From Paractinoplanes deccanensis (GTDB lineage: Bacteria > Actinomycetota > Actinomycetes > Mycobacteriales > Micromonosporaceae): a DNA stretch of 64,000 nucleotides. The notes under the pieces were generated by a model. The model saw only the letters and a program-made list of their open reading frames with translations, made no database searches and was not told the origin of the DNA. How positions within the stretch are numbered: the stretch's first letter is position 1; each line of letters opens with the position of its first letter. Shown here piece after piece: positions 51,725-64,000 of the stretch. The position numbers and the translations under genes are program-made. The stretch lies in contig NZ_BOMI01000063.1 in NCBI RefSeq assembly GCF_016862115.1, positions 62,001-126,000 of the forward strand, given 5' to 3'.

Positions 51725-53360
51725 GGGACACCAGCTCTCCGTCGTGCACGCCGAGGTCGATGACCCGGTCGGCGAGGTCCTTCACGGCCGTACGCGAGGT
51801 GGCGAAGACGATGGTCACGCCGAGCTCGCGGAGGCCGTCGAGGATGCGCCGCTCGGTGCGCGCGTCGACGGCCGAGGTGACGTCGTCGAGCAGCAGCACC
51901 TTCGCGCCCCGCAGCAGGCCCCGCGCGAGGGCGAGGCGCTGGAGCTGGCCGCCCGAGACGGTGCTGCCGCGCTCGCCGACCACGGTCGCGAAGCCCTCCG
52001 GCAGCGACTCGATGTGCTCGAGGATCCCGGCGACACGGCAGGCTTCGCGCAGCTGCTCGTCGGTGAGGTGGGCGCGGCCGAGGCGCAGGTTCTCGGCGAT
52101 GGTGCCGGACAGCAGCAGCGGGCGCTGGCCGACGATCGTGATGGCGTCGCGCACGTCGCCGATCGCCGCGTCGCGCAGATCCGTTCCGCCGTACCGGATG
52201 ACGCCCGTCGCCGGATCGGCGAGCCGGGCCAGCAGGCGCAACAGCGTCGTCTTGCCGGTGCCGACCGGCCCGACCACGGCGACGAACTCGCCTTCGCGCA
52301 CGGCCAGATCGGGCAGCCGCAACGGCTCCCGCCCGTCGAGCGCGACGGTGACGCCCTCAGCGGTCAGCAAACCACCGGCCGCCAGGCTGTCTGCTCCGCG
52401 TTCCGGCATCTCCGGTGTGGCCGTCAGGACCGTTTCGATGCGGCCGGCGGCGGTCCACGCGTCGCCGAGCTGGCCGAAGCGGAACGTCAGCATCATCACC
52501 TGGCGGCCGAGCAGCGTCATCCAGCTGGCGAAGGAGACCAGGCCGCCGACCGAGAAGCTGCCGTCCAGCACCGCCAGGCCGCCGAAGGCCACGCCGATCG
52601 CGGTCGCCAGCCACGGCACGAACGGCGCGTTCGCAGCCCAGCCTGCGGCGATCCGAGCCAGCGCCAGGGTGCGGTCGCGGACCGTCGCACTGACCTCGTG
52701 GTGGCGCTCGATGAGCACCTGTTCGCCGCCGAGGCCGCGCACCGCCGTACTGGCCGAGAGAAGGTCCTCCACGGCGTCCGCGCGTGCGCCGTGCGCCGCC
52801 GAGAGAGCCGCGTTGGCGCCCTCGTAGCGCTTGGGATACCACAGGTTCACCGCGATCAGCAGCGGCACCGTGCTGAGGCCGACGATCGCCAGCATCGGGT
52901 CGAGGGTGGCCACCACGACGAGCACCGCGAGGAAGCCCAGCATGCCGCTCGCGAGCGAGGGCACCGTGGACAGCCAGATGGTGATCTGCTCGACGTCACG
53001 GGTGCCCCGGGTGACGAGGTCGCCGGCCGAGAACCTGTGCGCGGTCACGGCGTCCCAGCCGAGCACCCGTTCCGCCAGCCGCAGCAGCAGCCGGTTGCCT
53101 GTCCGTACCCCCGCGAGCGTTGCCCACCACCGCATCGCGAACTCAGCGCCGGTCAGCGCCACCGAGACGAGCAGGGTGGCCGCGGCCCAGTAAAGCAGCG
53201 GCGAGCGGTCGCCCGGCGTGATGCCCTGGTCGAGGGCGCGGCCGAGGCACCAGGGCAGCAGGATCAGCCCGGCCTGGTAGCCGAGGCCGCCGATCCACGA
53301 GGCGGTCAGCCCCTTGGCGGAGTCGCGGACGGCCCAGCGCAGCAGCACGGCGGGGCTCAT
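51717..53360 (-). CDS. ABC transporter ATP-binding/permease subunit, partner with non-canonical Walker B
   Basis: The product has 547 residues: six membrane spans in residues 1-300 and an ABC domain with Walker [10 protein letters not shown], good signature 'VSGGQLQRL' and Walker B '[12 protein letters not shown]', where the usual catalytic Glu is Asp. In heterodimeric exporters one site is typically degenerate in this way, which supports pairing with the gene at 50018-51724. Its ATG overlaps the NRPS stop (ATGA), so it is translated with the synthetase. Confidence 0.85.
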
Positions 53361-62300: not shown

Positions 62301-64000
62301 GGGTGCTCGGCGAGCACGGCGGCGACCTCGCCCGGCTCCACGCGGAAGCCACGGATCTTGACCTGGTCGTCGGCGCGGCCCACGAACTCCAGCCGGTCGT
62401 CCCCGGTCCAGCGGACCACGTCGCCGGTGCGGTACATCCGCTCCCCCGGCGCCCACGGGTCGGCCACGAACCGGGTGGCCGTCAGTCCCGCGCGGTCCTT
62501 GTAGCCGCGCCCGAGCTGAGCGCCCGCCAGATAGAGCTCACCCGCCACACCCGGCGCGACCGGACGCAACCAGCCGTCCAGCACGTACGCCCGAGTGTTG
62601 CCGATCGGGCGCCCCACCAGAGGCGCCGCGCTGTCCGGCACGTGCGCCATGAGCGTGTCCACGGTGCATTCGGTCGGCCCGTAGAGGTTGACGCCGATCG
62701 TGCGAGGCGCCTCCCGCAGGGCGCTCCACAGCGCCGGACCGGCCGCCTCACCGCCGAGCATCACCAGCGCGGGCGCGTGCTCCCCGCTCAGCAGGCCCGC
62801 GTGGACCAGCTCCTGCCCGAGCGAGGGCGCCACATCGAGCGCGTCGATCCGGTGCCGGCGCACGTAGTCGACGAACAGGTCGGCGTCACGCCGGGTCTCG
62901 TCATCGAGCAGGTGCAGCTCATGCCCGGCGACGAGCCAGAGCAGCCCCTCCCACGAGGTGTCGAAGACCAATGCAGCGCTCAGCGCGGCACGAATAGGCT
63001 TATTCATCGGCTCGATCAGCCGCAGGCGATGGTGGTGGAACAGGTTCGCCAGGCTGGCGTGCTCCACGACGACGCCCTTCGGGCGCCCGGTCGAGCCCGA
63101 CGTGTAGATGAGGTAGGCACCGTTCTGCGGGGTGATGACCGGCAGGCTCGCCACGGCGACGCCGGCCGGGTTCGTGTCGGCATTCGGGTGAGTAGTCGCC
63201 TCGGCGAGCACCTGTGGCGTCACGATCACCGCAGGGGCGGCGTCCGCGAGCAGGTAGTCGATGCGCTCGCGCGGATAGTCCACGTCGATCGGCAGATAGA
63301 TGCCACCTGACCGCAGGGCGGCCAGCCACGCCACCACCGCGTCCTCGGTGCGGGGCACCAGGACCGCCACCACCTTCTCCGGGCCGGCACCACGAGCCAC
63401 CAGCAGCCGGGCCAGGCGGTCCACCCGAGCGTGCAACTCCGCGTAGGACAGCGCCGCGCCGCCGAAGCGCAGAGCGACGGCGTCGGGGGTCTTCCGCACC
63501 TGCGCGTCGAATACGTCGAGCAACAGGGCCGGCGGCACCTGCATAGAAGTATTCATCGTGACGAGCTCGCCGGCGGGCTTGATGGCGGCGAGGCGACCGT
63601 CCGGTTCCGCGGCGAAGGCGGCCAGCAAGTCGGCGAGGCGGTCGAGCACGCGCTCGGCCGCGGAGCGGGAGACGACGTCCGGGCGATACTCGGCGCCGAG
63701 GGCGATCTCCTTGGGGCCCGGCACCACGGTCAGCGTCAGCGGGTAGTGCGTGGCGTCGGTGCCCGTGACGGCGGCGAGGCGCAGGCCGGCCGCGTCCTGG
63801 AGCGTCCGCAGCCCCTCTTCGTCGAGCGGGTAGCTCTCGAAGACGAGCAGGGTGTCGAAGAGCGCCCCGACGCCCGTCTGCCGCTGGATGGTGGCGAGCC
63901 CGATGTGCTGGTGGTCGAGCAACGCCGCCTGCTCCGCCTGCACGCGCGCGAGGTATCCGGCCCAGGTGTCGGCCGGGCGCGGGCGAATGCGAACGGGCAC
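53357..64000 (-). CDS. Nonribosomal peptide synthetase, (C)-A-PCP-E / C-A-PCP-E / C-A-PCP (partial, N-terminus outside window)
   Basis: 3547 residues are in view; the frame enters from beyond 64000, so the start is not known. Domains by position: end of a C domain (63550-64000); A1 (62080-63530); PCP1 (61860-62070, GGDSI); E1 (60600-61800, HHTVVDG); C2 (59270-60590, HHVLLDG); A2 (57880-59270); PCP2 (57640-57850); E2 (56420-57600, HHLAVDA); C3 (55080-56420, HHVIVDG); A3 (53600-55080); PCP3 (53370-53560). All carrier serines and C/E motif residues are intact. The ten pocket residues I read for A2 are DVWHVSLVDK, the serine code. A1 reads DTWDMGLVDK and A3 DAWEGGFVDK, with an acid at position 278, which suits a basic residue such as (hydroxy)ornithine. 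There is no thioesterase or reductase at the end. It makes the peptide part of the siderophore. Confidence 0.93.

Follow-up and report, generated by a model that had tools for sequence, protein, structure and literature searches.

A very probable chlorodactyloferrin biosynthetic cluster in the Actinoplanes/Paractinoplanes group

With high confidence, we identify the NRPS locus described here as the daf cluster, which directs chlorodactyloferrin biosynthesis, in a host of the Actinoplanes/Paractinoplanes group. We analysed a window of 64,000 nucleotides (positions 62001-126000 of a 154.5-kb contig in a 10.6-Mb genome; contig position = window position + 62000) and the adjoining upstream DNA, for which extended window coordinates are given. 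The host genome groups with Actinoplanes/Paractinoplanes. Chlorodactyloferrin is a chlorinated siderophore that was described in 2023 from Dactylosporangium fulvum, a soil bacterium related to the host (PMC10683483). Its eight monomers are 4-chloro-2,3-dihydroxybenzoate (DHB), Gly, Arg, Orn, N-hydroxy-N-acetyl-Orn, Orn, Ser and cyclo-N-hydroxy-Orn, and the monochlorinated product (m/z 1001.459) binds metal via one catecholate and two hydroxamates (PMC10683483). The initial annotation had proposed a new siderophore. Comparison with known clusters instead returned a module-for-module, gene-for-gene match to the characterised chlorodactyloferrin cluster, a kind of correspondence that the annotation itself had named as counting against its proposal. 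Because of this correspondence, the molecule is almost certainly not new; the pathway is already known and the host is new.

We observed that the minus-strand frame beginning at 53357 ran uninterrupted to the window end and continued upstream beyond it. The whole gene, NRPS2 (the DafB orthologue), spans 64954..53357 on the minus strand (53357..64000 inside the window) and encodes 3865 aa with the domain order C-A5-T-E-C-A6-T-E-C-A7-T, without a thioesterase. The window thus holds only the last three of the seven modules of the assembly line. The upstream DNA of the same contig carries NRPS1 (79668..64939, minus strand, 4909 aa), which overlaps the start of NRPS2 by a few bases and has four modules in the order C-A-T-C-A-T-E-C-A-T-C-A-T-E. 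The full assembly line therefore consists of a starter C domain and seven modules, with epimerases in modules 2, 4, 5 and 6 and no thioesterase. In D. fulvum, DafA has a starter C domain and four modules, DafB has three modules, there are four epimerases, and inactivation of dafA abolished chlorodactyloferrin production (PMC10683483).

The D. fulvum chromosome (CP073720) was located by a genome scan with the halogenase, and its daf cluster was then compared with the locus. All 17 compared genes, a stretch bounded by the binding protein and the N-hydroxylase, were colinear with D. fulvum at 72-86% identity. Along its entire length, NRPS2 shared 72% identity with D. fulvum DafB; the halogenase (84%), the acetyltransferase (79%) and the hydroxylase (73%) were also colinear. 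The conserved order comprised the halogenase, the aryl carrier protein (ArCP), the DHB genes, the Orn N-hydroxylase, the N-acetyltransferase, the alpha/beta hydrolase and the ABC exporter pair. A-domain pockets were read by an ungapped anchor-based procedure, with GrsA as control, and every genome was read in the same way. Across the seven A domains, 62 of 63 pocket positions were the same as in D. fulvum, the sole change being Val/Ile in the Ser module. Each A domain had its best match in the cognate D. fulvum module (81-88% identity, compared to 40-78% for other modules). Motif reading placed E domains in modules 2, 4, 5 and 6 of both clusters. We observed the agreement in gene content, gene order, domain order and pocket identity directly. 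By their match to D. fulvum, the pockets are predicted to fit the order Gly, Arg, Orn, N-acetyl-N-hydroxyOrn, Orn, Ser, hydroxyOrn.

The three A domains of NRPS2 (all minus strand) bore out the pocket readings of the initial annotation, which numbered them A1 to A3. The A5 core (A3 motif to YGPTE, 62669..63106) has the pocket DTEDMGLVDK, with the basic-type Asp278 claimed for A1. It is predicted to select Orn, and an identical code occurs in a D. fulvum module that places Orn. The A6 core (58454..58885) has DVWHVSLVDK, the textbook serine code claimed for A2, and is predicted to select Ser. The A7 core (54161..54604) has DAQEGGFVDK, with the likewise basic-type Glu278 claimed for A3; it shares 88% identity with its D. 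fulvum counterpart and is predicted to select delta-N-hydroxyornithine, the cyclised C-terminal residue. The epimerase reported after the Ser module was also found (57266-57292, minus strand; second-His motif HHLAVDAVS, together with VGWFT) and is predicted to give D-Ser. The Ser-module E domain of D. fulvum has the HHxxxDA form too, its motif beginning HHLAVD, and D-Ser in chlorodactyloferrin has been chemically proven (PMC10683483). This makes it probable that the E domain following A6 is functional. Another E domain follows the A5 module (61466-61492, minus strand; HHTVVDGVS) and is predicted to convert Orn to the D form.

Downstream of NRPS2, on the same minus strand, we found the remainder of the operon (identities are to D. 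fulvum). Two DafT5/6-type ABC exporter halves (51717..53360, PF00664 and PF00005, 79%; 50018..51724, 77%) are followed by a DafK-type alpha/beta hydrolase (49208..50014, 73%), a type proposed to release and cyclise the C-terminal hydroxyornithine (PMC10683483). Next to these lie a siderophore-interacting protein (SIP) of the ferric-siderophore reductase type (48420..49211; PF08021, PF04954; 78%) and, also inside the operon, a Na+/H+ exchanger family membrane protein (47093..48427). The latter gene was retained in the compared daf clusters that extend that far. As the initial annotation had stated, the operon encodes a full 2,3-DHB supply and an ornithine N-hydroxylase. The supply genes are DhbA (2,3-dihydro-2,3-DHB dehydrogenase, 46338..47090, TIGR04316 above cut-off, 77%), DhbC (isochorismate synthase, 45145..46317, TIGR00543 above cut-off, 86%), DhbE (2,3-DHB-AMP ligase, 43569..45155, TIGR02275 above cut-off, 84%, ATG start by inspection) and DhbB (isochorismatase lacking a fused carrier domain, 42940..43566, 80%). 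The L-ornithine N-monooxygenase (DafL) lies at 41594..42928 (PF13434, 6.6e-105). These components are full-length enzymes of confirmed families and are not a chance assembly. Directly 3' of the operon is a membrane PAS hybrid histidine kinase/response regulator (39673-41586, minus strand). It also adjoins the operon in Paractinoplanes ovalisporus, P. maris and P. atraurantiacus, and was not found in the Dactylosporangium regions compared. A second FecCD permease domain pair (37264-39243, plus strand) represents a further ferric-siderophore uptake system near the daf operon.

The genes upstream of NRPS1 lie beyond the window. On the same strand as the NRPS genes are those for MbtH (79757-79966), a FAD halogenase (79966-81462), a 77-aa ArCP (81459-81692), a GNAT acetyltransferase of the Acetyltransf_8 family (81777-82376) and a periplasmic siderophore-binding protein (82377-83399). 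The ArCP is thus encoded by a separate gene past the upstream window edge and is not fused to DhbB. The other strand carries two genes for FecCD permeases together with an ABC ATPase frame (about 83.6-87.0 kb), so that, with the binding protein, Fep-type uptake genes adjoin the biosynthetic operon. Iron-box-like palindromes were present just upstream of the binding-protein gene (contig 145409-145427; 83409) and of the ArCP gene (contig 143736-143754; 81736), agreeing with the iron-box consensus at 17/19 and 16/19 positions. When the 92.5-kb region was mononucleotide-shuffled three times, no site scored 15 or above. These palindromes suggest iron control of the cluster, although iron depletion with DIP reportedly had no effect on chlorodactyloferrin production in D. 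fulvum (PMC10683483).

The product and each enzymatic step are extrapolated from the D. fulvum work. DhbC, DhbB and DhbA would make 2,3-DHB, which DhbE would load onto the stand-alone ArCP, and a CndH-type flavin halogenase would chlorinate DHB in its free or carrier-bound form. NRPS1 would then add Gly, D-Arg, L-Orn and D-(N-acetyl-N-hydroxy)Orn, and NRPS2 would add D-Orn, D-Ser and hydroxyOrn, with the modified ornithines supplied by the N-hydroxylase and the GNAT acetyltransferase. The alpha/beta hydrolase would release and cyclise the last residue, the ABC pair would export the product, and the FepB/C/D/G-type genes and the SIP would recover the iron complex, in which a chlorocatecholate and two hydroxamate groups would coordinate the metal. 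We predict the product to be Cl-DHB-Gly-D-Arg-Orn-(D-N-acetyl-N-hydroxy-Orn)-D-Orn-D-Ser-cyclo-hydroxy-Orn. The initial annotation was right in predicting a mixed catecholate/hydroxamate siderophore with D-Ser flanked on both sides by basic, ornithine-type residues. Its DHB group would differ in one respect: the halogenase upstream leads us to expect a chlorinated catechol.

The short DHB-(D-basic)-(D-Ser)-(basic) core of that annotation was wrong: Gly, D-Arg, Orn and D-N-acetyl-N-hydroxy-Orn would intervene between the catechol and D-Orn-D-Ser-hydroxyOrn. Three modules with fitting pockets do lie inside the window, as would suit a short siderophore that needs no other NRPS and has DHB attached to the residue of module 5. 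Retrieval of the upstream part revealed the four additional modules of NRPS1, which directly precedes and overlaps NRPS2; NRPS2 itself starts with an ordinary C domain. NRPS1 opens with a C domain of its own, shortly after the ArCP, halogenase and MbtH genes, and the D. fulvum product has eight monomers, so we regard the short product as very improbable. A chlorocatechelin/mirubactin-type cluster, which would give two DHB groups, an ornithine/arginine-derived acylguanidine, Ser and cyclic hydroxyornithine, is more improbable still. A chlorinated catechol, D-Ser and hydroxyornithine are what such a cluster and the locus would have in common. Chlorocatechelins A/B and mirubactin A, whose family relation has been described (PMC9609785), likewise combine a catecholate, chlorinated in the chlorocatechelins, with a cyclic hydroxyornithine, but they have a shorter chain and an acylguanidine, unlike the product encoded here. 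The gene-by-gene match is to daf, and a chlorocatechelin-type product was rejected on module count, since the seven modules here exceed what those compounds need.

A cluster of the same family with an altered monomer, acyl group or halogenation state, making a chlorodactyloferrin congener and hence a new siderophore, is unlikely, and is the least improbable of these alternatives. The NRPS identity to D. fulvum is not near-complete; at 72% it leaves room for a different hydroxyornithine acyl group or incomplete chlorination, and the pocket codes are predictions. The non-chlorinated form is a minor product of D. fulvum (PMC10683483). The Val/Ile difference in the A6 pocket could also favour a congener, but it stays within serine codes, the remaining pocket positions are identical, and the halogenase, acetyltransferase and hydroxylase are all present and colinear. 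These data argue for chlorodactyloferrin itself.

We also assessed the halogenase and its neighbour. The halogenase has the FAD GxGxxG motif as GGGPGGS and the WxWxIP motif as WIWYIP, characteristic of a variant-B (CndH-like) FADH2-dependent phenol halogenase. Its best PDB match was 3e1t (E 1.5e-167), an entry titled only 'Halogenase' that we take to be CndH. CndH-type halogenases are thought to act on carrier-bound phenols. Of 45 related loci, 22 had an ArCP gene as the immediate neighbour of the halogenase; they come from Actinoplanes, Dactylosporangium, Streptosporangiaceae, Actinomadura, Nocardia and Gordonia. In Streptosporangium and Acrocarpospora, at least, the NRPS next to the pair is a different one. 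Chlorination in D. fulvum has been proposed on free DHB (PMC10683483). The CndH-like character of the enzyme and the ArCP neighbour in 22/45 loci make chlorination of DHB-S-ArCP plausible. We tentatively propose, as a possibility we slightly disfavour, that the halogenase acts on ArCP-bound and not free DHB, and that the ArCP-halogenase pair is a chlorinating cassette for the catechols of otherwise different siderophores. In Streptosporangium carneum and Acrocarpospora pleiomorpha, a 76% identical halogenase and a neighbouring ArCP accompany a different NRPS, which has four modules and ends in a thioesterase-like tail; these loci possibly encode an uncharacterised chlorinated siderophore. Eight Gordonia loci carry the pair near an Orn N-hydroxylase-like gene, most of them also with an isochorismate synthase-like gene, and may likewise specify chlorinated siderophores.

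Among relatives, a halogenase at least 85% identical was present in 8 of 68 genomes of the genus, this genome counted; the closest match among named genomes was in P. atraurantiacus (93%). Uncharacterised daf clusters sharing the architecture up to contig ends occur in P. ovalisporus, P. maris, P. toevensis, P. atraurantiacus, Actinoplanes cyaneus and Dactylosporangium sucinum. In these six further clusters, the fully read pockets were the same or showed a conservative change; the P. atraurantiacus cluster is split over two contigs and its pockets were read in part. The A. cyaneus cluster lacks DhbA and DhbB. A salicylate version of the siderophore in that species was rejected, because both genes lie together on another contig.

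The locus differs from D. fulvum daf in host genus and in its surroundings: pyridomycin-type PKS genes flank daf in D. fulvum and are absent from this contig. A D. fulvum pyridomycin-type PKS frame had no match in this contig region at 1e-10. Genome-wide it had no clear orthologue: its long matches were ordinary type I PKS stretches and reached ~41% identity, the best of them along most of the PKS. Recognising the cluster has dereplication value, as it spares an isolation campaign for a supposedly new siderophore. Clusters of the chlorodactyloferrin type turn up fairly often in Actinoplanes and do so in the absence of pyridomycin genes. The iron-driven conjugate of siderophore and pyridomycin that D. 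fulvum makes is therefore probably confined to strains in which the antibiotic cluster is present as well.
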